From: Geoglobus acetivorans
Lineage (GTDB): Archaea; Halobacteriota; Archaeoglobi; Archaeoglobales; Archaeoglobaceae
Assembly: GCF_039641995.1 (NCBI RefSeq)
Contig: NZ_CP087714.1
Span: forward strand, 62,001 to 126,000
DNA length: 64,000 nt
Direction: 5' to 3'
The first letter of the stretch is position 1; each line of letters starts with the position of its first letter. Positions 2,536-59,148 of this stretch are shown one piece after another. Under the pieces are notes generated by a model. It had not been told where the DNA came from. It did no database searches and saw only the letters and a program-made list of their open reading frames with translations. The position numbers and the translations under genes were made by a program.

Positions 2536-3755
2536 CACCATTTCTCATTCCAGTACTTTTTGATGGTTTCCAGAGCAACCAGCTTTTCACCGCTCAGGAA
2601 TCTTATGCTCGCCCCGCCTCCCGTGGAGATGTGGCTCACCTTGTCCTCAAGCCCAGCAAGTCTTGCCGCAGATGAAATGTGTCCTCCACCCACCACTGAA
2701 AATCCTGCCCTCGATACTGCCCTGAGAATCTCAAACGTCCCGTAGGCAAATTCCTCCTCTTCAAAAACTCCGGCGGGGCCGTTTATCACGGCTATATCAT
2801 AGCTCTCAATTTCTCTGGAAAACATCTCCACCGTCTCTCTCCCAATATCCTTTATGGGCGGTTTGTCATCCATCCTGAAAAACTCCTCGACGGAAATATC
2901 GACCCTCTCCCCTCCAATCTCACAGCCAAAGTCCACGGGAAGGACTATTCTGTCTTCATAGTTCTTCAGCAGCTTCTTCATCTCTGAATCGTCAATACCC
3001 TCCTTGTTATCTTCCACAATCCTGATGTTTTTCTCTCCGAGGTCGTATCCCATGAGCATGAGGAAGTAATTGGCAACAACTCCTGTGAGGAAGACCCTCT
3101 CAGCAATGCCCTTCTCAAGAACGTTTTTCATGACGTTGACAGAATCGCTTATCTTCGCTCCGCCGAGAACGAATGCCTTTTCACCCTCACTGCCGAGCGC
3201 ATTCGATAATGCCCTGACCTCCTTCTCAACCAGCCTTCCAATCACCGAGGGCAGAACAACAGGAAATCCCACAAGACTCGCATGACCCCTGTGTGATGCG
3301 GAAAAGGCATCATTGACATAGAAATCAAAATACCTGTAGAGTTTTGATACGATATATGAGCCGGCATGCTCTTCGGGTGTTTTTTTCAGTTCCTCTTCAG
3401 AATAAAACCTGACATTCTCAAGCAAGAGTATATCGCCAGCATCCATCTCCAGAATCCTCTTTACGGCACATTCGGAAAAAACCTCATCAATATACTCAAC
3501 TTCCCGGTTAAGCAGCCTTGAAAAGACTTCAGCATGCTTTTTCAGCGTCGTGAAATCCTTCTTTCCGGGTCTCGACTGATGGGCCAGCAGAACAACCCTG
3601 CAGTCCTCAAGCTCTCTTATCGTTGGAATGTGGGCCCGGAATCTCGTCGTGTCCAGAATCTCTCCCTCAACGATGGGTGCGTTAATGTCAACCCTAACGA
3701 GGACGCTCCTGCCTGAATAATCAATGTCATCCAGAGTCGGATACTCCTCAATCAT
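2517..3755 (-). CDS. pgk: Phosphoglycerate kinase
   Basis: This 412-residue archaeal-type PGK interconverts 1,3-bisphosphoglycerate and 3-phosphoglycerate with ADP/ATP. Visible signatures are VLVRVDINAPI (substrate-binding N domain), TTRFRAHIPTI, LLAHQSRPG, FYVNDAFSASHR, and the C-terminal nucleotide loop VINGPAGVFE with VVGGGHISSAAR. The start is one of two adjacent ATGs; 3755 is chosen because MIEEY is the more usual opening. A TATA-like run (about 3778-3790) places the transcript start at the ATG, which suggests a leaderless message. The archaeal sequence lacks the G-rich bacterial spacing but has all catalytic blocks. Confidence 0.95.
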   Translation of the reverse strand: MIEEYPTLDDIDYSGRSVLVRVDINAPIVEGEILDTTRFRAHIPTIRELEDCRVVLLAHQSRPGKKDFTTLKKHAEVFSRLLNREVEYIDEVFSECAVKRILEMDAGDILLLENVRFYSEEELKKTPEEHAGSYIVSKLYRYFDFYVNDAFSASHRGHASLVGFPVVLPSVIGRLVEKEVRALSNALGSEGEKAFVLGGAKISDSVNVMKNVLEKGIAERVFLTGVVANYFLMLMGYDLGEKNIRIVEDNKEGIDDSEMKKLLKNYEDRIVLPVDFGCEIGGERVDISVEEFFRMDDKPPIKDIGRETVEMFSREIESYDIAVINGPAGVFEEEEFAYGTFEILRAVSRAGFSVVGGGHISSAARLAGLEDKVSHISTGGGASIRFLSGEKLVALETIKKYWNEKWCHSHRL

Positions 3756-3833
3756 CAATCAGAAATCCCGGCCTGAAATTAAAAAGTTTTTGAAAAGCAG
3801 AATGGGGGCAAAAAGAAGATAAAATAAATGGAA

Positions 3834-4106
3834 TTAGTCCTTCTTACCGAGAACAATCTCAATAGCAGAGACGTTTGCCTCGCCCTGCTCGCTCTCAACC
3901 TTCTCGGTTGAGATCTTGATGTCCTTTACCTCAACATCTGGAAGGAATCTCTTCCTGACGATCTCTGCAACATCGACAGCCCTGCTGATCGCTCTTCCCC
4001 TTGCCTTAACAACGACTTCCTTTGCACCGCCGTTGAACTGGGTCAGAACTGCCAGAACATAGTTCATTACAGGCTTGTTTCCTACAAACACAGCGTTTTC
4101 TGCCAT
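3834..4106 (-). CDS. albA: Alba family DNA/RNA-binding chromatin protein
   Basis: The protein has 90 residues from [17 protein letters not shown], which matches the start of Alba (conserved '[10 protein letters not shown]' strand-turn). It continues with [20 protein letters not shown], the helix that carries the basic nucleic-acid-binding face, and ends in the beta-hairpin [13 protein letters not shown]...VSAIEIVL. Alba is an abundant dimeric nucleoid protein that also binds RNA. The second ATG (4106) is chosen because the strong ggaggt Shine-Dalgarno lies 8 nt before it and only 2 nt before the upstream ATG at 4112. It is monocistronic between convergent and divergent neighbours. Confidence 0.95.
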
Positions 4107-4146: not shown

Positions 4147-5181
4147 CTATATTAACTTTTCTTTTACCATCAACTCAGCATTCAGTATGCTTGCTCCAGC
4201 AGCACCCCTGACAGTGTTGTGTCCGAGAACGAGATATTTGATCCCGCTGTCTCCATCCTTTCTCACTCTCCCAACGACAACGCTCATGCCATTTCCTGCA
4301 TCTCTGTCAAGTCTCGGCTGAGGTCTGTCGGGTTCATCCCTCACCACGATAACCTCTTCCGGAGACGTGGGCAATCCTTCAATAGGCTTGAAGCTCCTGA
4401 AAGCTTCAATAACATCGTTCACTTCTATATTTCCACCAAACTCGGCAAAAACTGCCTCAAGGTGTCCGTCAATGACCGGAACTCTGTGACATGAGGCTGA
4501 AACCGTTATGCTGGCAAAATCGATACCGCTGCCCGTGAACTTTCCAAGCAGTTTGAGCGGTTCGGTCTCAACCTTGTCCTCCTCACCCCTGATGAAGGGT
4601 AAAACGTTGTCGATAACAGACATTGATGGCACTCCGGGATAACCAGCTCCGCTCAGCGCCTGCATCGTGGCAACGTTTACCTTGGCAAGCCCGAGGTCCA
4701 AGAGCGGTTTCAGTGTCAGAACAAGCATGATGGTCGTGCAGTTGGGATTCGTTACGATGAACCCATCCCAGCCCCTGTTCCTTTTCTGCACGTCAATCAG
4801 GCCGAGATGTTCGGCATTCACCTCAGGAATGACCAGCGGAACGTCCTCCTCCATTCTGAAGGCAGAAGCATTGCTCGCTACAGCAAAACCCTCCTGAGCG
4901 AATTTGGGTTCGACCTCTCTTGCAATGTCCGCGGGAAGGGCGGAGAAAACGATATCAGCATCCACATTTCTGGGGTCCATCGGCAGCATTTCCATGTCCC
5001 TTACATTTTCAGGTACATCGGATGAGATGAGCCATTCCACCTCGTCTCCGTAAGCCTTCCCAACCCTCCTCTCACTCGCCATCAGTGCAGAAATCTCGAA
5101 CCAGGGATGGTTTTCGAGGAGCTGGATGAACTTCTGCCCGACCATTCCGGTCGCTCCGAGCACGGCAACTTTGTATTTCAT
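4147..5181 (-). CDS. asd: Aspartate-semialdehyde dehydrogenase
   Basis: This enzyme reduces aspartyl phosphate to aspartate semialdehyde with NADPH, the branch point to Lys, Thr and Met. From the ATG at 5181 the protein has 344 residues and opens with the nucleotide loop [14 protein letters not shown]. The catalytic cysteine is C148 in [21 protein letters not shown] follows, and the catalytic His is in [11 protein letters not shown] longer frame exists, but a TATA-like box at 5200-5213 puts the transcript start at this ATG. Homoserine made from the product may feed the ThrC-like enzyme of the sulfur island (36.2 kb). Confidence 0.95.
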
Positions 5182-48712: not shown

Positions 48713-49585
48713 TTGAATGTGTTCATCACGGGTGGAAGTGGTCTTCTGGGGAGCAAGATCGCAGAAATTGCGGTTGACAGAGGATATGAGGTTTATTCAG
48801 GATACCACAGCCACAAACCCGAGTTCGGTGAGGCGGTTAAACTTGACCTGTCAAGTCCGGAAAGCATCAGGGGAGTTATCCGCGAGGTGAGGCCGGACGT
48901 CGTCATCCATACTGCAGCTTTAACCGATGTCGATAGGTGTGAAAGGGAGAAAGAACTGGCACACAGAATAAACGCTGAGGGGACAAAAGTTGTGGCCGAG
49001 GTGGCGAGAGAGGTAGGTGCATTCCTCGTGTATGTTTCGACGGACTACGTTTTCGATGGTGAAAGGGGAATGTACAGGGAAGAGGATGAGACGAATCCCG
49101 TGAACCACTACGGCTACACGAAGCTTGCTGGGGAGAAACACTGTCAGGACTTCTGCATCGCAAGGACATGTGTTATTTACGGAGCAAGGCCGGCGAGCGG
49201 CAAGGTTAACTTTGCTCTGTGGCTGATTGACAGGCTTGAGAAAGGAGAGAGTGTCAGAATTGTCACAGACCAATATATTACGCCAACACTCAACACGAAC
49301 CTCGCTAAGATGATCCTGGAATGTGCGGAGAATGAGCATAGAGGAGTTTTTCACCTGGCCGGAGCAACGAGGGTTTCGAGGTTCGAGTTTGCCAAGGAGA
49401 TTGCGGAAGTCTTCGGTCTGGAAGAGAGTTTGATAATTCCCTCGAAGATGGAAGAGATAAACTGGATCGCTAAAAGACCGAGAGATTCCTCGCTTGACGT
49501 TTCAAAAGCTGCAAGATACTTGAGTGAGAAGCCCCTTGAGCTGAGAAAGGCTTTAAAGGTGCTGAAGGGAGAAATGGAGCGATAG
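48713..49585 (+). CDS. rfbD: dTDP-4-dehydrorhamnose reductase
   Basis: The 290-residue SDR protein reads NVFITGGSGLLGSKIAEIAV after a TTG start that follows ggtgaga. The catalytic YVSTDYVFDGERG and YGYTKLAGEKHCQDF are present. It makes dTDP-L-rhamnose from the 4-keto sugar after epimerisation by RfbC. A 48-nt decayed copy of the rfbC start follows 2 nt after its stop, and the true rfbC lies 680 nt further on, beyond a toxin-antitoxin module. Confidence 0.92.
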   Translation: MNVFITGGSGLLGSKIAEIAVDRGYEVYSGYHSHKPEFGEAVKLDLSSPESIRGVIREVRPDVVIHTAALTDVDRCEREKELAHRINAEGTKVVAEVAREVGAFLVYVSTDYVFDGERGMYREEDETNPVNHYGYTKLAGEKHCQDFCIARTCVIYGARPASGKVNFALWLIDRLEKGESVRIVTDQYITPTLNTNLAKMILECAENEHRGVFHLAGATRVSRFEFAKEIAEVFGLEESLIIPSKMEEINWIAKRPRDSSLDVSKAARYLSEKPLELRKALKVLKGEMER

Positions 49586-49587
49586 TC

Positions 49588-49635
49588 ATGCTCCCCGGCA
49601 CAGTTATCAAACCCCTGAAGATGTTTTGTGGGTGA
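49588..49635 (+). pseudogene. Decayed duplicate of the rfbC 5' end
   Basis: From ATG 49588 the frame reads LPGTVIKPLKMFCG and stops at 49635. The true rfbC at 50267 begins LPGIVIKPLKRFADERG. At DNA level the first 39 bases differ at about 7 positions; the match then fades. The copy sits where rfbC should follow rfbD, just upstream of the inserted toxin-antitoxin module. Confidence 0.8.
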
Positions 49636-49677
49636 GGTCCTAAAAAGGTTTTTAAGATTTAAAAAAGAGGATATATC

Positions 49678-49926
49678 ATGATTTCAATAAAGCGTGAGGT
49701 TCACGATGAGATCGTGAAGAGACTTCTCAACGAGCTTGAATACTATAGCGCAATTGTCACTAAATTCGAAAAAAAATACAGATGCTCACTGAATGAGCTG
49801 GAAAGAAGAATCGAGAAAGAAGGTGTGCCTTTAGACAGCCATGAAATCTGGGAAGACAGTATAGAGTGGAGAAACGCAGTTGAAGAGGTGGAAAAACTGA
49901 AGAAGCTTATCGAGGAGCTTAAATGA
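49678..49926 (+). CDS. Predicted antitoxin paired with a TumE-like toxin
   Basis: The 82-residue protein is rich in Glu and Lys with likely long helices (VHDEIVKRLLNELEYYSAIV, then AVEEVEKLKKLIEELK). It has no recognisable DNA-binding domain. It starts at an ATG with A/T boxes 20-30 nt upstream and overlaps the TumE-like gene by 4 nt. First position and coupling suggest the antitoxin role. Confidence 0.65.
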   Translation: MISIKREVHDEIVKRLLNELEYYSAIVTKFEKKYRCSLNELERRIEKEGVPLDSHEIWEDSIEWRNAVEEVEKLKKLIEELK

Positions 49927-50264
49927 CTGAAATTCTCAAGGAAGTTGCAAAAAAGTTGCTGGATTACGATATCGTACTGAAAGTGGAATTTTTTGGAACT
50001 AAGGTCAGGGCCTATCTGGTTCGCGGGTATATTTTTGACGTATACCACAACCAAACGCTCGGAAAATACAGCTATACGCTGATAAAAGAGGACAGACGGA
50101 TAGCTGGTTGGGACAATGCACCTCACCATGTATCTGTTGAAACGTATCCAGACCACTTTCATGATGTTGATGGGAAGATTAAGCCATCTTACCTATCCGG
50201 AGACCCTTTGGAAGATTTGGATAGGGTTTTGAATGTAGTCAAGAATATCCTAGGGGAGGTGTGA
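49923..50264 (+). CDS. TumE-like (DUF6516) toxin
   Basis: The 113-residue protein contains RAYLVRGYIFDVYHNQTLGK and KEDRRIAGWDNAPHHVSVET, then YPDHFHDVDGKIKPS. The DNAPHH block followed by T-x-P-x-H-x-H is the signature of the TumE family of toxin-antitoxin proteins. The biochemical activity is not known to me. It ends 2 nt before the rfbC start. Confidence 0.8.
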   Translation: MTEILKEVAKKLLDYDIVLKVEFFGTKVRAYLVRGYIFDVYHNQTLGKYSYTLIKEDRRIAGWDNAPHHVSVETYPDHFHDVDGKIKPSYLSGDPLEDLDRVLNVVKNILGEV

Positions 50265-50266
50265 TT

Positions 50267-50764
50267 ATGCTGCCGGGTATAGTTATCAAACCCCTGAAAA
50301 GGTTTGCAGACGAGAGGGGATTCTTCACCGAGATAATGCGGAAGGACTGGGACATCTTTCAGGACAAAATCGTTCAGGCGAACCTGTCCATCACGTATCC
50401 CGGAATCGTCAGGGCATGGCACAAACACGAGAGGGGACAGGTTGACTACTTCGTCTGCGTTAAAGGAGCCATCAAGATATGCGCATACGATGATGAAACG
50501 CAGGAGCTTGCCGAGATCGTCTCGACCGGAGAGAACCCGCAGGTGGTGAGGGTTCCGGGACACTACTGGCACGGGTTCAAGGCTGTTGGCAATGAACCTG
50601 CTATGCTGGTTTACTTTGTGAGCAGACTCTACGACTACGAAAATCCGGATGAAGTGAGGAGGCCGTGGAACAATCCAGCAATAGTTCCAAAAGTCATAAA
50701 TGGACGAAAGGATGATCCAAGGTGTGGTAAGCCCTGGGACTGGTTTTACCCGCCACACAAATAA
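50267..50764 (+). CDS. rfbC: dTDP-4-dehydrorhamnose 3,5-epimerase
   Basis: The 165-residue RmlC-like cupin has LPGIVIKPLKRFADERGFFT, IVQANLSITYPGIVRAWHKH with the catalytic His region, YFVCVKGAIKICAYDDE and the late RVPGHYWHGFKAVG. It epimerises C3 and C5 of the 4-keto-6-deoxy sugar. ATG 50267 is favoured; a GTG two codons earlier is possible. It completes the rhamnose pathway but is separated from rfbD by the toxin-antitoxin insertion. Confidence 0.92.
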   Translation: MLPGIVIKPLKRFADERGFFTEIMRKDWDIFQDKIVQANLSITYPGIVRAWHKHERGQVDYFVCVKGAIKICAYDDETQELAEIVSTGENPQVVRVPGHYWHGFKAVGNEPAMLVYFVSRLYDYENPDEVRRPWNNPAIVPKVINGRKDDPRCGKPWDWFYPPHK

Positions 50765-50879
50765 TCCATGAAGTTACAGGCAAGGTCGAAGAGTGAGTGG
50801 TCTGTGCCATGGTGGAATGGTCGGTGTGAGGGTCTCTAACCGACTTTAAAAAATCAACAGGGGAAACGCCAGTGAATGC

Positions 50880-50948
50880 ATGAGCGAGGTCAATCAACCT
50901 CTCCAGAGAATAACGAGAGAGTCAAGAAGAATGTTTGCTGGCAAATCA
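50880..50948 (+). pseudogene. Decayed duplicate of the flippase 5' end
   Basis: The frame from ATG 50880 reads SEVNQPLQRITRESRRMFAG before it loses likeness. The true flippase (51712) begins NEVSHALQRIARGTGIVFAG. An A/T box (ctttaaaaaatc, about 50842-50853) precedes this copy as one does the true gene, so the promoter and about 70 coding bases are duplicated. An AbrB/PIN toxin-antitoxin module separates the two copies. Confidence 0.8.
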
Positions 50949-50963
50949 CCATGTAGTAGGTTA

Positions 50964-50976
50964 AACTATTTATACG
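50964..50976 (+). promoter_or_regulatory. TATA box of the AbrB/PIN module
   Basis: The sequence actatttatacg is centred 27 nt before ATG 50997. It fixes the antitoxin start there and excludes the in-frame extension that belongs to the flippase remnant. Confidence 0.5.
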
Positions 50977-50996
50977 ATTCCAACCAGTCCAACATT

Positions 50997-51257
50997 ATGG
51001 AAAAGTTGGAAAGCATTGTGAAAGTGTCTGGAAAAGGACAGATAGTGATACCCAAGGAGGTAAGGGATGCGCTGGGCATAAAGTCTGGTGGAAAGCTGGC
51101 AGTTATTGTAAGAGATGACGAGATAATTCTGAGAAAGATAGAACGGCTGGATCTTTTGGAGATGAGTTCCAGAATTTCATCTGTGGTTGAAAAAGAGAAT
51201 ATTGACGTGGATAAACTGGTAATGGAGGCTGTTGAGTGGGCAAGAAAACAAAGATAG
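50997..51257 (+). CDS. AbrB/SpoVT-family antitoxin
   Basis: The 86-residue protein begins EKLESIVKVSGKGQIVIPKE, the swapped-hairpin AbrB DNA-binding motif (VSGKGQIVIPKEVRDALGI), and continues GGKLAVIVRDDEIILRKIE. A helical tail (VVEKENIDVDKLVMEAVEWA) would hold the toxin. It overlaps the PIN gene by 22 nt. It should repress its own promoter. Confidence 0.88.
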   Translation: MEKLESIVKVSGKGQIVIPKEVRDALGIKSGGKLAVIVRDDEIILRKIERLDLLEMSSRISSVVEKENIDVDKLVMEAVEWARKQR

Positions 51258-51661
51258 TTTTAGATACAAACATCTGGATCTCGATATTCTTCAACAAGAC
51301 TTTGAGTAAGGAATTCGGCGATCTATTCAGGAGTGGAAAGATCGAGGTTTATGTCTCAGAAGAGATTTTAAAAGAAATAGCTCGAGTTCTTGAGTATCCG
51401 AAAATAAAGACCGTACTGGAAAAAGCCGGGATGGATTCAAAAGAAGTTCTAAAGGAAATTTCAGGAATATCTAAGGTTGTGAATCCAGAGAAAAAACTGG
51501 AAATCATACGGGAGGACCCCGAGGATAACAAGTTCTTAGAGTGCGCACTCGAAAGCGGGGCGGAGTATATAGTGAGTGGTGATAAGCACCTGCTGGGAGC
51601 TGGAGAATTCGAAGGAATTAAAATAATCCCTGCAAGAGAATTCATAGAGAGAATGAAATAG
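51236..51661 (+). CDS. PIN-domain toxin (VapC-like)
   Basis: The 141-residue protein (GTG start) begins KIVLDTNIWISIFFNKTLSK, with the first catalytic Asp in LDTN. EEILKEIARVLEYPKIKTVL follows. Late acids lie in EDPEDNKFLECALESGAEYI and GDKHLLG. This is the 'putative toxin, PIN family' class that pairs with AbrB antitoxins and cleaves RNA. It lies 50 nt ahead of the flippase start. Confidence 0.88.
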   Translation: MGKKTKIVLDTNIWISIFFNKTLSKEFGDLFRSGKIEVYVSEEILKEIARVLEYPKIKTVLEKAGMDSKEVLKEISGISKVVNPEKKLEIIREDPEDNKFLECALESGAEYIVSGDKHLLGAGEFEGIKIIPAREFIERMK

Positions 51662-51711
51662 CGATCATCCCCAAATAGCGAGGAGATTAAAAAACCAAGG
51701 CAGGTAATAGA

Positions 51712-53238
51712 ATGAACGAGGTCAGTCATGCCCTCCAGAGAATAGCAAGAGGAACAGGAATAGTATTTGCTGGAACAATCATTTCGATGTTCTTCGGGTT
51801 CATCAGCAGGGCAGTAATAGCCAGATACCTTTCGGTTGGAGAGTACGGAGTCTTCAATTTGGCCCTTACAGTTCTTAACATAGCCCTTGTGGTATCTACT
51901 CTTGGACTTCAGAATGCTCTACCTAGAGAAATTGCTTTTTATAAAGAAAGAGAATCTTCAAGAATTATGGATTTAATATCCATGGCTTTGATAATTGTGG
52001 CATTAAATAGTTTAATTTGGACAAAAGTTTTAATTTTTGGAGCAGAGAACATTTCCCAAGTTTTTAATGAAGAAAGATTAGTTTACGCTCTAAAAATAAT
52101 GGCTTTTGCACTGCCGTTTTCGGCCTTAATTGGAATGATGATTTCAATCTCCCAAGGTTTTGGTAGGGTTAGAGAAAAGGTCTATTTTCAGAATATACTT
52201 TACCCCACTGTGTTTTTAGTCCTCGTTGTAGGTGGAGCTTTTCTAGAGCTATCTTTCACATATGTATTTTTTGCTTATGTTGTTGCTCAAGCCCTCACGC
52301 TTTTGGTACTAACTTTTGATGTGTGGAAGATTAAGCTATTTGAGTTTAAGCTTTCTTTCAACATGAAAATTGGAAAGAAACTTTTAACATTCTCTCTTCC
52401 ATTAATGTTAGGTGGAATTTTGATTTTTGTTATGAATTGGACAGACACATTAATGCTTGGCTATTACGGAACCTCTGAGGTTGTTGGTCTCTACAATGCT
52501 GCAACACCTCTAGCTAGGCTGATTCCTATATTCTTGAATTCTGCAGCTTTCCTTTATCCCCCAATTGCCGCTTCACTTTATGCTAAAGACAGACTTAAGG
52601 AATTGAAGAGAACATATCAAATATTAACTAAGTGGATTTTTCTATCAACATTACCAATATTCAGTGTTATGTTTCTTTTTCCAGAAGTAACAATAGGACT
52701 TCTCTTTGGGACAAAGTATTTGCCAGCAAGTCAAGCCTTGAGAATTCTGGCTTTGGGTTCTATGTTTCATACTTTTCTTGGCTTAAATGGATTGAGTTTG
52801 GTTGTAATTGGAGAAACAAGGTTTGGTCTAAAATCCTCATCAGTTTCAGCAGTGCTGAATGTCATTCTAAATGCTCTGCTAATACCATCCTATGGAATAG
52901 AAGGAGCTGCTGTTGCTACAGCAGTTTCATACTTGGTTGCTAACATTTTAAATTCTTGGAAGCTTTACCAAAAGACTAAAATCCACCCCTTCAGCTGGAA
53001 TTATGTGAAGTCTTTGGCTATTAGCTTTGTTTTGTTAGGACTACTTCAGAGTTTGCAATTAAAAGTGCCGAATATATGGTATGCTGTTCTAATCTTAGTA
53101 GTTTTTCTTATATTATATCTCCTTTTAGTGCTATTAAGCAAAAGTATTGATAAAGAGGACATTGACTTACTTGCATCGATAGAAAAGAAGCTAGGAGTAA
53201 ATTTAAAAATAATAAAAATAATAAGGAAGATTATTTAA
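51712..53238 (+). CDS. Oligosaccharide-unit flippase (Wzx / polysaccharide exporter family)
   Basis: The 508-residue membrane protein has about 12-14 hydrophobic helices. It begins NEVSHALQRIARGTGIVFAG, with FGFISRAVIARYLSVGEYGV typical of the MOP/MATE-like flippases, and later LGGILIFVMNWTDTLMLGYY. It would flip lipid-linked glycan units across the membrane for S-layer or surface glycans. From about 51900 the DNA becomes AT-rich, unlike the first 60 codons and the upstream genes. This suggests that the body of the gene came by transfer. Confidence 0.92.
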   Translation: MNEVSHALQRIARGTGIVFAGTIISMFFGFISRAVIARYLSVGEYGVFNLALTVLNIALVVSTLGLQNALPREIAFYKERESSRIMDLISMALIIVALNSLIWTKVLIFGAENISQVFNEERLVYALKIMAFALPFSALIGMMISISQGFGRVREKVYFQNILYPTVFLVLVVGGAFLELSFTYVFFAYVVAQALTLLVLTFDVWKIKLFEFKLSFNMKIGKKLLTFSLPLMLGGILIFVMNWTDTLMLGYYGTSEVVGLYNAATPLARLIPIFLNSAAFLYPPIAASLYAKDRLKELKRTYQILTKWIFLSTLPIFSVMFLFPEVTIGLLFGTKYLPASQALRILALGSMFHTFLGLNGLSLVVIGETRFGLKSSSVSAVLNVILNALLIPSYGIEGAAVATAVSYLVANILNSWKLYQKTKIHPFSWNYVKSLAISFVLLGLLQSLQLKVPNIWYAVLILVVFLILYLLLVLLSKSIDKEDIDLLASIEKKLGVNLKIIKIIRKII

Positions 53239-53255
53239 TGAGATTTTACGTTTCT

Positions 53256-54254
53256 TCAAAACAACCTCCTATAACTTGAAACAAGAGTTTTCTGGATTAA
53301 ATATATCAGCTTGGCAATATAATACGTAGCAATGAATGATGTTAGCTTCTTAGCCCCTAAGGTGTATGGCTGTTGTAAGGCATCAGAAATTTTCTGAAGT
53401 TCCTCCTTTTCATTAAAGATGTGAGTATTTATAGCTACTATATGGCATCTCTTTTCAATAGCCTTGTGGGTAACTAATTTTGCAAGTTTTTTATTATCTT
53501 GAATTATGTATATCCCAAACCCCTTAGACTGGAATATTTCGAAGAGTTCTCTAGTATCCGTATCCAACAATTTCATTTGATTTGGATGAATCTCACATAG
53601 AATATATTTTACATTATGTAGTATATCCCCAAAACCTCTTAGTACCAAAACTTCAGCTCCTTCGACATCTATTTTAATAATATCTGGGGCCCTGGTTAAT
53701 AACTTATCTTCATAAAATATCGAATCAAATCGTTTTACTTGCACATTTTCAACAATTTCTGCATTTTCTGCAATTCCCATAGTATTCTCACCAGATTTGC
53801 TTCCCTTGGGTAAAGCTAGCTTTGCTATTGTATTTGTATCCCCAAGTGCAAAATTGAATGTTTCTATGTTTTTGTAGTTGTTACTGTTAATATTTAAAGT
53901 TAGAATTTCATAATTAAACGAGCTAGGTTCAAAAGCTAATACTATCCCAGAATCTCCAACCCTTTCTGCTGCTATTAAAGTGTAGAATCCAAAGTGAGCC
54001 CCAACATCTACAACGATATACCCCTCTTTGATAATGGAAGCAAATATCTTTTGAAACTCTAATTCGGATCCAGCACCATACTTCTTTGTTAGGAATAGAT
54101 AATAACCTTGGGCAGAAAAAGTAGGGACAGTGAAAAATTTTTGTCCCTTATCGATAATAAATTCTACCAATTTATTTGGTATGAACAGATGCTCCATTGC
54201 ATCCAAACTTTTCAAGACAATAATACCAGACTTCTTTAGTAAATTCTTTATCAT
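53256..54254 (-). CDS. FkbM-family methyltransferase
   Basis: The 332-residue protein has the SAM-binding motif YIVVDVGAHFGFYTLIAAE, EPSSFNYEILTLNIN, and the FkbM feature IIKIDVEGAEVLVLRGFGDI with CEIHPN after it. Such enzymes O-methylate sugars in glycolipids and surface glycans. It lies in the AT-rich block and overlaps the upstream glycosyltransferase gene by 4 nt (ATGA). Confidence 0.88.
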   Translation of the reverse strand: MIKNLLKKSGIIVLKSLDAMEHLFIPNKLVEFIIDKGQKFFTVPTFSAQGYYLFLTKKYGAGSELEFQKIFASIIKEGYIVVDVGAHFGFYTLIAAERVGDSGIVLAFEPSSFNYEILTLNINSNNYKNIETFNFALGDTNTIAKLALPKGSKSGENTMGIAENAEIVENVQVKRFDSIFYEDKLLTRAPDIIKIDVEGAEVLVLRGFGDILHNVKYILCEIHPNQMKLLDTDTRELFEIFQSKGFGIYIIQDNKKLAKLVTHKAIEKRCHIVAINTHIFNEKEELQKISDALQQPYTLGAKKLTSFIATYYIAKLIYLIQKTLVSSYRRLF

Positions 54255-55486
54255 ATATCACCCTCCACATAACATTTTAAATGTTCCTTAGCACATCTTT
54301 TCCAGGTAAACTTTTTAGCTCTTTCTATTCCCCATTTGGTTAATTTTCTTCTTAGTTTTTTGTCACTTACAACTTTATAGATCGCATTAGCAATTTTCTC
54401 TGGGTTGTAAGGATCCACAAGAATAGCAGTTTTTCCTGCTACTTCAGGCATTGAAAAAACATTAGAAGTGATTACTGGACAACCACAAGCCATGGCTTCT
54501 AATATTGGCATTCCAAAACTTTCATGGAAAGAAGGAAAAACAAAGGCTTCTGCTACGCTATAAAATAGAGGTAACTCTTCTTCTGGTATAAACCCAACGA
54601 AAATAACATCATCTTCAATTCCTAAGTCCTTTGCTAATCTCTTTAAGCGATTTGGCTGTTTACCACCTATTATTAGTTTTTTCTTCTTTAAAATTTTATT
54701 ATACTTTTTCTTTGCAATAGCAAAGGCCTTTATTATATTCTCGACATTCTTTTTTGGTTGGTATGCACTGAGATGGAATATAAAGGGAAAATTTATTCCA
54801 TAGTTTTGATATAATATCTTTCCAGCTTCTCTGTTTCTTTTTGACTTACAATTTTTGTAATCGGCTCCATGATAGATAACTTTGATTTTCTCAGGCGAAA
54901 TTCCTAGGCTTTTTACAATATTCTTTTTTTCTGAATGTGAGACAGTAATCATAATTTTAAAACGTGTTCTAAATAGATATTTCCACTTCAAATATTCGAT
55001 ATAATAAATAATTCTTGATACCGTGAAAAATTTCCCCCAACATAGTCTAGGGGGAAGTGCCAAATTGGCCATTCCATGATTAGTAACAATGAGAGATGTA
55101 TTGTCAAAATCAAACACTAAATACGCAATTGGGGGAGCAGGCCTTCCTAGGTGAGGAATATGTAAAACATCGGCATCCTCTTTTTTATAAAATTTTATAA
55201 TTTCAAAATTTCGTTTAATATTCCAAAGACTCGTTAGAAGGAAAACTAAAACCCTAATAGGGAAAAATGACTGCTTTCTCTTTTTAAAAAATGGAATCAT
55301 AATCTCGCGAGCTTTTTTGTAAATATCAATATTTCTCCTTTCTCCATGGATTAAAATTATATCAACTTTTTTATCAATATTTATTTCCAACAAATTTCTA
55401 ACCAAATTTTCTGTGTATTTCCCTACACTGGTCGGACCTTTTTCTATTGAATCAGTAATAATTGCAATTTTCATATGATTCACCAA
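54251..55486 (-). CDS. Glycosyltransferase family 4 (GT-B)
   Basis: The protein of about 411 residues has N-terminal IAIITDSIEKGPTSVGKYTE, a middle FIFHLSAYQPKKNVENIIKA and GFIPEEELPLFYSVAEAFVF. The catalytic E-x7-E region is FHESFGMPILEAMACGCPVI. It would add a nucleotide-activated sugar to a growing glycan. The start is a TTG (55486) or GTG (55483), about 6-9 nt after a gggagga site. ATG 55474 is 18 nt from it and so less well placed. AT-rich codon use. Confidence 0.88.
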   Translation of the reverse strand: MVNHMKIAIITDSIEKGPTSVGKYTENLVRNLLEINIDKKVDIILIHGERRNIDIYKKAREIMIPFFKKRKQSFFPIRVLVFLLTSLWNIKRNFEIIKFYKKEDADVLHIPHLGRPAPPIAYLVFDFDNTSLIVTNHGMANLALPPRLCWGKFFTVSRIIYYIEYLKWKYLFRTRFKIMITVSHSEKKNIVKSLGISPEKIKVIYHGADYKNCKSKRNREAGKILYQNYGINFPFIFHLSAYQPKKNVENIIKAFAIAKKKYNKILKKKKLIIGGKQPNRLKRLAKDLGIEDDVIFVGFIPEEELPLFYSVAEAFVFPSFHESFGMPILEAMACGCPVITSNVFSMPEVAGKTAILVDPYNPEKIANAIYKVVSDKKLRRKLTKWGIERAKKFTWKRCAKEHLKCYVEGDI

Positions 55487-55487
55487 G

Positions 55488-57098
55488 CTAAATCCTCCCT
55501 TTTAGCTTTAAGCTTTTTATTGCCTTTTTAAGCTTTTCATCTTCTTGTTTCCTCTCGTAGTAGCTTGGATTAATGTATTTCGGCTCTCTTTTTGCGAGCT
55601 CCGAATCTTCTTCGAATATTTCCATCAAAACCCTCCCGTCCATATCGTTTGGAATTGGCAAGCCGAAGATGTGGAGGATTGTTGGAGCAATGTCATAGAT
55701 TTTTGCTCTTTCGATTTTGTGGCCTTTTTTGATTCCTAGGCCATAAGCAAGGAAGATTCCATTTAACCTATGGGCACCTGTGTGTCTTGTCGAAAAGGGC
55801 TTTTCCTCGAATAATGGCCTATCAAAGTTATCTTCGATTATAACACATCTCCAATCGTTAATCGTAAAGATTATGTCAGGCAAGAGGTTAACTTTTTCTC
55901 CAGAGTATAGTCTTTTGGGTTCGTATATCTGGACTTCGACTTCTTTTCCAATATCTTTGCTTAAGTTTTTCAAGTCATGTATCAATCTGGCTTTAATTTC
56001 ATCCCTTTCTTTTTCACTGTTTGCGTTTATGTAAATGGCACCGAAGGGAATCGTGTGTCTTAAACAGAAGGCTTTACTTTTCTCAATGTCAATTTCGTCC
56101 ACTATGCTTGTTTTCAGTGCATCTCCGACGCTTTTTCTTGTTTCAGCAGAAAATAGTCTCCTTACTGGTGTTTTTGCCACGATTGTGGCGATTTTGTATG
56201 CATATTTTTTGATGAACTTCTTTACGTCTCTTATCCTGACCATGTATCCCTTCGAAACCAACCACTTCGCAAGGTTAAATGTCTGGTCGTTGGGTCCAAA
56301 TCCGTGATCGGATGCGAGAAAAACGATTGTATCTTCTGAGAGCATATTCAAGATGTTTCCAAGAATTCTATCTATTCTCTGCCAGAATTTAACGAACTCG
56401 TCTTTATACCTTGGCGACGTTTCCGGATCAAACATTGGATGGTTTTCATCTATGTGCCTCCAGATTATGTGCTGCATCCAGTCAGTTACCGAAAAAACGA
56501 GGAAGAGCAGATCCCATTCTTCGTTTTCGACCAAGTATTGTACCCATTTTTCAAATTTGCTCAGGAATTCATTCAAGTCGTAAATGAAAAGATCGAGATT
56601 CTCGTATTTTTTGTTGTGATAGTCAACATAAATTTCATACGGGCTTTCAATTTTTTCGAGTTCCTTTTTTAGAGATTGCGGATACGAAACCTCGTCATCA
56701 GGAGAAGACCCCAACCCAGAAATCATAAAGCCGTTCACTTTATACGGGGGGAACAGCATTGGGTAATTGAAGATGCCGACTTTTTTGTTTGCTTTGCTTA
56801 AATAGTCCCAGAAAGAGTGCCCCTTAAAGTCGGAAGAAGTTGCCGGATGTAGCTTATAACCCTCGTCCTTTCTGTTCAGGAAGTCAATTACCCCTGTTTT
56901 CCCGGGAGTTTTCCCCGTTGCCAATGAAAGCCAGGCTCCACCGGTTACCGGAGGGATAGTTGATTCCAGAACTCCGTAACTTCCGTTTCTGAGCAATTCT
57001 TCAAGCGTTGGAAGTTTCTTCTGATTTATTAAAGGAATTAAGATGTCCCACGTTGCTCCGTCGAGGCCGATGATCAGTAGCTTTTGAGAATCGACCAT
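55488..57098 (-). CDS. Type I phosphodiesterase / nucleotide pyrophosphatase-like (alkaline phosphatase superfamily)
   Basis: The 536-residue protein has the metal Asp in LLIIGLDGATWDILIPLINQ, the nucleophile Thr region in STIPPVTGGAWLSLATGK, FLASDHGFGPNDQTFNLAKW, and the last His pair in FSTRHTGAHRLNG. A DMDGRVLMEIFEED segment closes the domain. Relatives hydrolyse phosphodiesters or transfer phospho-groups in archaeal and bacterial glycan clusters. It is first of a three-gene minus-strand AT-rich operon, with a likely promoter near 57100-57150. Confidence 0.85.
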   Translation of the reverse strand: MVDSQKLLIIGLDGATWDILIPLINQKKLPTLEELLRNGSYGVLESTIPPVTGGAWLSLATGKTPGKTGVIDFLNRKDEGYKLHPATSSDFKGHSFWDYLSKANKKVGIFNYPMLFPPYKVNGFMISGLGSSPDDEVSYPQSLKKELEKIESPYEIYVDYHNKKYENLDLFIYDLNEFLSKFEKWVQYLVENEEWDLLFLVFSVTDWMQHIIWRHIDENHPMFDPETSPRYKDEFVKFWQRIDRILGNILNMLSEDTIVFLASDHGFGPNDQTFNLAKWLVSKGYMVRIRDVKKFIKKYAYKIATIVAKTPVRRLFSAETRKSVGDALKTSIVDEIDIEKSKAFCLRHTIPFGAIYINANSEKERDEIKARLIHDLKNLSKDIGKEVEVQIYEPKRLYSGEKVNLLPDIIFTINDWRCVIIEDNFDRPLFEEKPFSTRHTGAHRLNGIFLAYGLGIKKGHKIERAKIYDIAPTILHIFGLPIPNDMDGRVLMEIFEEDSELAKREPKYINPSYYERKQEDEKLKKAIKSLKLKGRI

Positions 57099-57178
57099 AA
57101 CACACCTCCTCTTAAGTCTGACAGAGAATAATGCTTTTAAATTTTTGGGAATTTTAATTTTTCAGGGGGCGTAATTTT

Positions 57179-57245
57179 GTGTTTCTCCGTGTCTCAATCA
57201 TAATCCTCAACCGGAACAGCTGGAAGGATACAATAAAAATATTCG
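57179..57245 (+). pseudogene. Decayed duplicate of the GT2 gene 5' end
   Basis: From GTG 57179 the frame reads FLRVSIIILNRNSWKDTIKI and then diverges. The true GT2 gene (58054) begins KKFPRVSIIILNWNGWKDTI. Over about 50 bases the DNA is clearly homologous, for example TCATAATCCTCAACCGGAAC against the TCATCATCCTCAACTGG of the real gene. A TATA-like run (cttttaaattttt, about 57132-57144) precedes it. From 57246 to 57430 nothing is recognised. Confidence 0.8.
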
Positions 57246-57466
57246 GGGCAACCTTTTATAGACCAACAAACTCTCCTTGCCGTAATTTTACATTCCACAT
57301 TAAGAGAATGGTAGTAGGCACAAGTTCCAGATTGATCGTCACGTATATAACTCCCACACAGACTCAGAATGGTAACTCTGCCATCAATTTGATGGTCGAT
57401 CTGCAATCGAGTTGTCGCCTTCGAAGCACCAACATTTTTAAAACATAAAAGACAATAAGTTTACTG

Positions 57467-57682
57467 ATGACAGAAATCGTCAGAAGACTGGAGTTGCTTG
57501 AAAGAGAGATCCGGGATCTGAAGAGTCTGATATTCTCAAAGGAGGATCCAGCCCTTGAGAAAAAGCTCGTGTCTCTCAGAGGGATGGGAAAACCTCTGGC
57601 TGAGGACGACGAAATAGAAAACGCAATAGAGGAGGCAAAGAAATCAATTTTCCCGAAGATCGAGGATGATTTACGTAACTGA
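57467..57682 (+). CDS. Predicted antitoxin of a PIN toxin
   Basis: The 71-residue protein starts TEIVRRLELLEREIRDLKSL, a heptad-like coiled helix, then RGMGKPLAEDDEIENAIEEA. No DNA-binding motif is obvious. It overlaps the PIN toxin gene by 17 nt, the expected order for a VapB-type antitoxin. A TATA-like run (about 57433-57447) lies 25 nt before its ATG. Confidence 0.7.
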   Translation: MTEIVRRLELLEREIRDLKSLIFSKEDPALEKKLVSLRGMGKPLAEDDEIENAIEEAKKSIFPKIEDDLRN

Positions 57683-58046
57683 CACCCATCCACTTGTCTG
57701 GTATCTGATGGACAGGCTGCCGGAAAACGCAGACCGCATTTTCACATCTGCGGAAAAAGGAGACGCCATAATCTACATCCCCACAATTGTGCTTGCGGAG
57801 TGCATGTATCTTGCGGAAAGTGGAAGGATAGAAATTGATTTCGAAGACCTGCTCGGCAGGCTGGAAGTGGGCAGAAACTTCGTTCCAGTATCCTTCAACT
57901 TTAAGGTTCTGAAACTCCTCCCCGAAGTAAAGCTGAAAGAACTTCACGACAGGATAATCGTCGCAACCGCGAGGATTCTCGATGCCAAACTCATCACAAA
58001 AGATGAAGAAATCAGAGAATCGGGAATGGTCGAAACCGTGTGGTGA
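57666..58046 (+). CDS. VapC-like PIN-domain toxin
   Basis: The 126-residue protein begins IYVTDTHPLVWYLMDRLPEN (first acidic residue in TDTHPLVWYL). It has PTIVLAECMYLAESGRIEID with the second acid, ELHDRIIVATARILDAKLIT with the third (HDRIIVATA), and ends KDEEIRESGMVETVW. This is the VapC ribonuclease pattern. It ends 7 nt before the GT2 start. Confidence 0.9.
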   Translation: MIYVTDTHPLVWYLMDRLPENADRIFTSAEKGDAIIYIPTIVLAECMYLAESGRIEIDFEDLLGRLEVGRNFVPVSFNFKVLKLLPEVKLKELHDRIIVATARILDAKLITKDEEIRESGMVETVW

Positions 58047-58053
58047 CGCCACG

Positions 58054-59148
58054 ATGAAGAAATTCCCGAGAGTCTCCATCATCATCCTCAACTGGAACGG
58101 CTGGAAGGACACAATAGAATGCTTGGAGTCGCTTTATCAGATTACGTATCCAAACTATGATGTCATTGTCGTAGATAACGGTTCTGAAGATGACTCAGTT
58201 CAGAAAATAAAGGAATACTGTGAGAGTAGGATGGAAGTGAACTCTAAATTCTTTGAATACAATCCAAAAAACAAGCCCATAAAAGTGTTCGAGATATCAG
58301 AAGATAAGGCAAGAAAGGGAAAATTTAACCGACCACTTTATGAGAAGTTCGACGTTGATAGGCGACTGATCCTTATTGAAAATAAAGAAAATTATGGTTT
58401 CGCCAAGGGAAATAATGTGGGCATAAAGTTTGCTTTGAGTGTTTTGAATCCTGATTACGTTTTGCTTTTGAACAACGATACTGTGGTTGATAAAAACTTC
58501 CTAAATGAACTCGTGAAAGTTGCTGAAAGCGATAAGAGCATAGGTATTATAGGTCCCAAAGTATATTATTACGATTTCGATGGTAAATCAAACGTTGTGC
58601 ATTCAAGAGGGGGCAAAGTTTTGCCAAAACTTGGATTAGCACCGCCAATAGGGAATTCTGAAGTAGACACAAACTATGCCGTATGCCCCCCATATGATGT
58701 GGATTATGTTGAGGGTTCTTGCTTACTGGCAAAATCTAAGATCATTAAGAACATAGGATTGTTAAACGAAACATTGTTTTCGTATTGGGAAGAAGTAGAT
58801 TTTTGTCTGAAAGCGATAGAAAGTAAACATAGAGTAGTGTGTACAACATCGTCAAAAATATGGCACAAAGTATCTTCGTCAATTGGAAAAACACATCCCA
58901 TTAAGCTGTACTACATGGCAAGAAACAAACACATAATTATTAAAAATCATTATAATGTACTAAATCTTTCAATTTTGATAATATATTCAAGTATAGATGC
59001 TCTAATTTCGGTGATAGTCTACTGGATAAAATATAATTGCAAGCGATGTGTGATCAGTCTACTAATGGGGCACATAGAGGGAATCATGAATAATATTCAT
59101 ACACTTAAAAATCAGAGAACTCCCATACTCTCTTCAATTCTTAAATAA
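58054..59148 (+). CDS. Glycosyltransferase family 2 (GT-A, rhamnosyltransferase-like)
   Basis: From ATG 58054 the protein has 364 residues. It has RVSIIILNWNGWKDTIECLE, YDVIVVDNGSEDDSVQKIKE and YVLLLNNDTVVDKNFLNELV (DxD-like), then YVEGSCLLAKSKIIKNIGLL and FSYWEEVDFCLKA (catalytic E-D). Two hydrophobic helices near the end may touch the membrane. An insert of about 45 residues after the DNGS motif is unusual. RfbN/WbbL-type rhamnosyltransferases have this plan. The longer frame belongs to the preceding PIN gene region. Confidence 0.88.
   Translation: MKKFPRVSIIILNWNGWKDTIECLESLYQITYPNYDVIVVDNGSEDDSVQKIKEYCESRMEVNSKFFEYNPKNKPIKVFEISEDKARKGKFNRPLYEKFDVDRRLILIENKENYGFAKGNNVGIKFALSVLNPDYVLLLNNDTVVDKNFLNELVKVAESDKSIGIIGPKVYYYDFDGKSNVVHSRGGKVLPKLGLAPPIGNSEVDTNYAVCPPYDVDYVEGSCLLAKSKIIKNIGLLNETLFSYWEEVDFCLKAIESKHRVVCTTSSKIWHKVSSSIGKTHPIKLYYMARNKHIIIKNHYNVLNLSILIIYSSIDALISVIVYWIKYNCKRCVISLLMGHIEGIMNNIHTLKNQRTPILSSILK

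Follow-up and report, generated by a model that had tools for sequence, protein, structure and literature searches.

Related systems

Restriction-modification (RM) systems have been described to undergo 'insertion with long target duplication', the duplication being long and variable (Nobusato 2000; Furuta 2010, as summarised in PMC3874152 and PMC3031569). For the effector-immunity arrays of type VI secretion systems (T6SS), homology-facilitated illegitimate recombination has been proposed, which leaves remnants of the displaced genes (Kirchberger 2017, PMC5361080). Here we set beside these systems three toxin-antitoxin (TA) modules in a 64,000-nucleotide stretch of the Geoglobus acetivorans genome, called the window below (positions 62001-126000 of G000, an archaeal genome of 1.90 Mb on one contig). 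Each module is bracketed by two copies of the start of the gene that follows it, an intact one downstream and a decayed one upstream. A first-pass annotation of the window had stated that no described TA transfer mechanism with this footprint was known to it; the long target duplications of RM systems and the remnant-leaving displacement in T6SS arrays speak against that statement.

The likeness to RM systems lies in the footprint only. In both cases, as far as the cited summaries go, an addiction module free of transposase lies between long direct target repeats of variable length (on the order of 100 bp), and related genomes have an empty site. However, the inserts described here are by Pfam type II TA modules in heat-loving archaea and not RM systems, the repeats cluster at gene termini, arrays of several modules form, and the unit of repeat plus module recurs at unrelated positions. 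With the T6SS arrays our loci share that successive toxin-type modules enter one gene via a conserved anchor and that remnants lie between the modules. In those arrays it is the toxin gene itself that is anchored; in ours an unrelated host gene provides the anchor, and the TA pairs that form the modules are intracellular.

The comprehensive TA survey of Makarova 2009 (PMC2701414) stresses mobility and reports TA-like modules inside operons of one strain where the orthologous locus of another strain has none; its text contains none of the terms 'direct repeat', 'target site' and 'transposase'. In a limited search, mostly outside subscription journals, we found no published description of the footprint for TA modules. 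Integron gene cassettes, too, form arrays in which a repeated element separates small modules that are unrelated. Our arrays resemble these, but the repeated element is a host gene terminus and not attC; no integron integrase or attC was recognised by eye, and no search aimed at them was made.

Start copies at three modules in the window

Each open reading frame (ORF) of at least 100 aa in the window was compared with its own upstream 4 kb. The features of the three cases are:

48713..49585, + strand: rfbD (dTDP-4-dehydrorhamnose reductase), Pfam RmlD_sub_bind, E 4e-75; the rfbC remnant begins 2 nt past its stop codon
49588..49626, + strand: case 1, decayed upstream copy of the rfbC start at the native position, 85% to 50267-50305
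49678..49926, + strand: case 1, putative TumA-like antitoxin, an 82-aa ORF ahead of TumE
49923..50264, + strand: case 1, TumE toxin, PF20126, E 4e-13
50267..50764, + strand: rfbC, intact, PF00908; its first 39 nt are the downstream copy (repeat D6)
50865..50941, + strand: case 2, decayed upstream copy of the flippase start with 15 nt leader (repeat D1)
50997..51257, + strand: case 2, AbrB/MazE-type antitoxin, PF04014, E 1e-12
51236..51661, + strand: case 2, PIN_3 toxin (VapC-like), PF13470, E 3e-23
51712..53238, + strand: flippase, intact, PF01943, E 5e-30; the downstream copy 51697-51773 comprises its first ~62 nt and 15 nt leader
55488..57098, - strand: divergent neighbour gene (ORF of 536 aa), which fixes the native GT2 position
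57180..57238, + strand: case 3, decayed upstream copy of the GT2 start, beginning GTG TTT as in G027 (repeat D2 from 57191, extended to the start by the G027 alignment)
57467..57682, + strand: case 3, small antitoxin ORF of 71 aa; a similar ORF lies beside a homologous PIN gene in G002
57666..58046, + strand: case 3, PIN toxin, PF01850, E 4e-12; 68% homologue in G002
58054..59148, + strand: GT2 glycosyltransferase, intact, PF00535, E 1e-20; 58072-58119 is the downstream copy

The start copies that the first-pass annotation had noticed are real: they are the top three own-upstream matches in the window (E 4e-8, 3e-10 and 6e-13; the next has 8e-5). Aligned by nucleotide, the rfbC pair (49588-49626 and 50267-50305) is 85% identical over 39 nt, the flippase pair (50865-50941 and 51697-51773) 73% over 77 nt from 15 nt upstream of the ATG, and the GT2 pair (57191-57238 and 58072-58119) 88% over 48 nt. 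Their alignment scores are 48, 58 and 66; the highest scores reached were 29-30 with 500 dinucleotide shuffles and 26-31 with 220 real 1-kb segments from the window. Chance similarity is ruled out by these shuffles, by the real sequence and by the control genes described below. The module identities read from the translations agree with Pfam (TumE, PF20126; MazE/AbrB, PF04014, with PIN_3; PIN), while the small antitoxins at 49678 and 57467 gave no significant family match. At the rfbC locus of several other relatives the case 1 antitoxin again accompanies TumE, and in one of these the toxin has decayed.

Sites without the modules in relatives

Where relatives lack these modules, the orthologous locus has a single copy of the gene. 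In case 1, rfbD is directly followed by rfbC in G015, in both G019 loci and in G010. In case 2, the whole rfbC-flippase intergenic region of G025, a congener like the genus mates G027 and G030, can be aligned by eye with the sequence ahead of the G000 remnant, and G020 and G037 likewise have no module at the flippase site. In case 3, a single GT2 start lies ~80 bp from the same divergent neighbour in G027; the G000 remnant aligns with this site, promoter region included, and has kept the native spacing to the neighbour. The first codons of the intact GT2 gene, ATG AAG AAA, are by alignment unlike the native GTG TTT start. By these module-free sites, the upstream copy marks the native position, and the TA module together with a second start was added downstream of it.

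Frequency of repeat-bracketed modules

Within the family, loci were scored as bracketed if direct repeats flanked them at a distance of up to 2 kb. This was so at 12 of 58 PIN loci from complete genomes and at none of 127 control ORFs of similar size (Fisher p 4e-7), and at 11 of 26 TumE modules against the same controls (p 4e-10); as several bracketing loci derive from one ancestral unit, the number of events is below that of loci and these p values are too small. For genes of 200-500 aa, bracketing was seen at 1 of 93 within these regions and at 3 of 234 within control regions. At five of the 12 PIN loci the repeats are adjacent homologous TA genes. Such loci were separated by hand (L229, L236 and L253 within the PIN count, also L224, L248 and L249), which leaves host-derived repeats at 7 of 58 (p 2e-4). 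The host-derived repeats come from HsdS starts, the 3' half of tRNA-Lys, wecB and GT2 starts (at 1.705 Mb of G000) and the trm56 end.

Outside the family, 2 of 29 PIN loci were bracketed, which is weaker than inside (p 0.13). In a genome of another family of the same phylum (L310, G083), a VapBC pair lies between 94-bp repeats of 83% identity (3654-3747 and 4627-4720), derived from the end of a cysteine-motif gene. The footprint is therefore not limited to the Geoglobus family.

Several loci met in this survey deserve separate mention. At 1.705-1.713 Mb of G000 (L208), two wecB-type starts flank a DUF104-MazF pair and three GT2 starts lie around a RelE-like gene and a nucleotidyltransferase gene, a further start-TA array in the genome of the window itself. 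The gene segment GVKEVQWGLPSPFFGEQRKAK recurs as bracketing repeat of VapBC and TumAE alike in two genera (L317 and L156 in G002; L139 and L151 in G021). In G001 (L233, 2772-3893), an HsdS gene has internal repeats with a period of ~620 bp, and a DUF104-PIN pair lies directly upstream of its start. In G030 (L104, G030:C550, 3157-5478), several decayed flippase starts alternate with a PIN/UPF0175-type pair that is encoded on the other strand; one flippase allele after another has left its remains here.

The rfbC site is a hotspot for TA modules: other relatives carry TumAE, DUF104-VapC, UPF0175-MazF-like and RelBE-like modules between rfbD and rfbC, singly or in tandem (names assigned partly by eye from translations). 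A start copy is present in G000, G023, G030 and G013 and was not found in G020, G021, G025, G027, G007, G012, G037 and G038, so that the footprint at rfbC is common and not universal. Near the rfb genes of G001 (L106, 4427-8003) lies a tandem array of at least four DUF104-VapC pairs with a decayed fifth copy; the C-termini of its PIN proteins are nearly identical (NDALIAATCKHYGI...DEDFRRVDFL).

Gene ends, arrays and recurring units

The first-pass annotation had proposed that TA modules enter at gene starts by a process that duplicates the start and keeps the host gene intact. Duplication of a gene boundary with one intact gene is borne out, but it is not specific to starts, since ends mirror it. 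A restriction to gene starts is ruled out by trm56, by a 1238-aa membrane protein with three modules and by the 3' half of tRNA-Lys. In G023, a VapBC pair comes after trm56, and behind the pair lies a 36-bp repeat of the end of that gene. The empty site in a sister species (genome G024), where trm56 has the same downstream neighbour and no module intervenes, proves the duplication; the G024 36-mer is one base away from either G023 copy. In G025, three modules stand behind the gene of the 1238-aa membrane protein, in the order DUF104-VapC, TumAE and UPF0175-type pair, and each of them has a copy of the gene's end after it. This array of ends is the mirror image of the array of flippase starts in G027; a start array is also present in G030.

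Units of one terminus and one module recur with conserved junctions at unrelated positions. A block of 1,045 bp comprising flippase start, AbrB and a putative toxin (no Pfam match) is 86% identical between G027 and another G000 locus (1.69 Mb), where the flanks are unlike; it begins within 1-2 nt of the flippase start codon. The membrane-protein end with TumAE (~1,060 bp at 77-80%) has the same junction in G025, G011 and G012, with differing neighbours. The unit rfbC start-TumAE-rfbC (1,248 bp at 84%) follows rfbD in G023 and a MazF module in G030. The closest homologue in the family of the case 3 PIN toxin, in G002, lies inside a 155-bp repeat of unrelated sequence, as would be expected if insertion duplicates its own target.

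How the modules may have entered

We consider it probable that TA modules insert at gene termini with duplication of their target, and that units of terminus and TA module then spread by homologous recombination. Type II TA modules would insert beside the termini of host genes with a long and variable target duplication (~36-350 bp). Insertions at the start or end would be the ones that leave one intact gene and hence survive. The spare copy would then decay, as is seen in the trm56 case and is presumed for the others. Once bracketed, one gene terminus together with the TA module would become a portable cassette, which could enter other copies of that terminus in related genomes via homologous recombination while the host gene stays intact; repeated entry would produce arrays in which termini and modules alternate. 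The footprint, the single-copy sites and the conserved junctions of units at unrelated positions are observed, whereas the enzymology of the first insertion and the part of homologous recombination as mover of the units are inferred.

Several points weigh against this reading. Most TA modules have no repeat (46 of 58 PIN and 15 of 26 TumE modules), several at the same rfbC site among them, and the bracketed loci represent fewer events than their number suggests, as noted above. A shared terminal motif was not seen at 14 junctions, and relatives of two of the toxins were not found in IMG/VR viral contigs, so that a viral vehicle did not emerge. The upstream rfbC copies of G000 and G030 are nearer to the allele of a congener than to their own downstream copy (by 9.5 and 15.5 log-likelihood units; p of the approximately unbiased (AU) test 0.28 and 0.17; the copies are short), which simple target duplication does not predict. 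The case 1 upstream copy matches the G025 rfbC start at 37 of 39 sites and its own downstream copy at 33 of 39, and the G030 upstream copy is 92% identical to G027. The case 1 copies look like different alleles, although for neither genome does the AU test significantly disfavour pairing with the own gene. In cases 2 and 3, comparing the upstream with the downstream copies site by site in a sign test gave no information, since the upstream copies have decayed.

These alleles are what would be left by displacement through homology-facilitated illegitimate recombination, the mechanism already proposed for T6SS effector-immunity arrays (PMC5361080), which we regard as rather unlikely to account for the footprint. 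In this case a donor 'TA + gene' would pair at one end and join illegitimately inside the resident start or end, and the old terminus would remain as a remnant of another allele. This fits the grouping of the upstream rfbC copies of G000 with G025 and of G030 with G027 and not with their own genes; it also fits the second flippase remnant of G027, which is 80-81% identical to the G030 and G019 flippases and 71% to its own gene, and the upstream copy of G023, which is without a codon present in its own gene. Moreover, displacement predicts a mixture of rfbC sites with and without start copy. On the other hand, the two trm56 copies are each one change away from the same sequence of the sister genome and look like one duplicated sequence; among the trm56 loci fetched, no other matches the G023 VapBC; the rfbC copies of G013 and G023 pair with their own genes (with weak support); and displacement leaves unexplained how a TA module first came to lie beside a gene. 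Staggered insertion and recombination with a donor, the two options considered in the first-pass annotation, are each supported by some of the cases. The best fit is a mixed model, in which insertion with target duplication comes first and spread and replacement between homologous termini follow.

Very unlikely, in our view, is that the loci are relics of ordinary mobile elements that have lost their integrase or transposase, with the repeats as att sites or target duplications. In favour of it, the tRNA-Lys case (L214), the only one with a tRNA repeat, duplicates the 3' half of the tRNA, the classic integrase site, and one locus in G014 (L254) adjoins an ORF which by eye resembles an IS605-type TnpB. 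Lengths from 36 to ~350 bp and unrelated targets misfit one integrase or the short fixed-length duplications of transposons and insertion sequences, the insert ends have no common motif, and no integrase or transposase ORF was recognised in the inserts read, L214 included, as judged by eye and not by family scan. The G014 locus has a 105-bp direct repeat of 90% identity with self-complementary ends (2574-2678 and 3784-3888) around a PIN gene.

Still less likely are remnants of tandem gene duplication joined later by chance with TA modules: fast gene turnover in polysaccharide clusters and the many flippase alleles would suit this, but it is rejected on the relatives, which at the loci examined have single genes and no full-length tandem paralogues, and it fits poorly with the remnants, which are pieces of a terminus between tens and a few hundred bp long and bracket the TA module, with the same footprint at core genes (trm56, tRNA-Lys) and with control bracketing at or near zero.

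Target-duplicating insertion with later spread of the units could be taken one step further, to a recombinase-free cassette system, which we put forward tentatively. Each TA module would travel, probably as a circle, together with exactly one host terminus. Recombination between the bracketing repeats would excise this unit, and one crossover at any homologous start or end would insert it again and restore an intact gene. Host termini would then be shared docking sites for unrelated TA modules.

Significance

These loci bear on the question of how TA modules in chromosomes can move when no mobile element carries them. The footprint makes past insertions datable and countable, gives a landing rule and predicts intermediates that can be tested. 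By the similar scar that both leave, it also links TA modules and RM systems as addiction modules. Our results suggest that the termini of host genes serve as homology arms for the spread of TA modules, and the footprint may show how TA pairs move between genomes without a transposase while the host gene remains unbroken.

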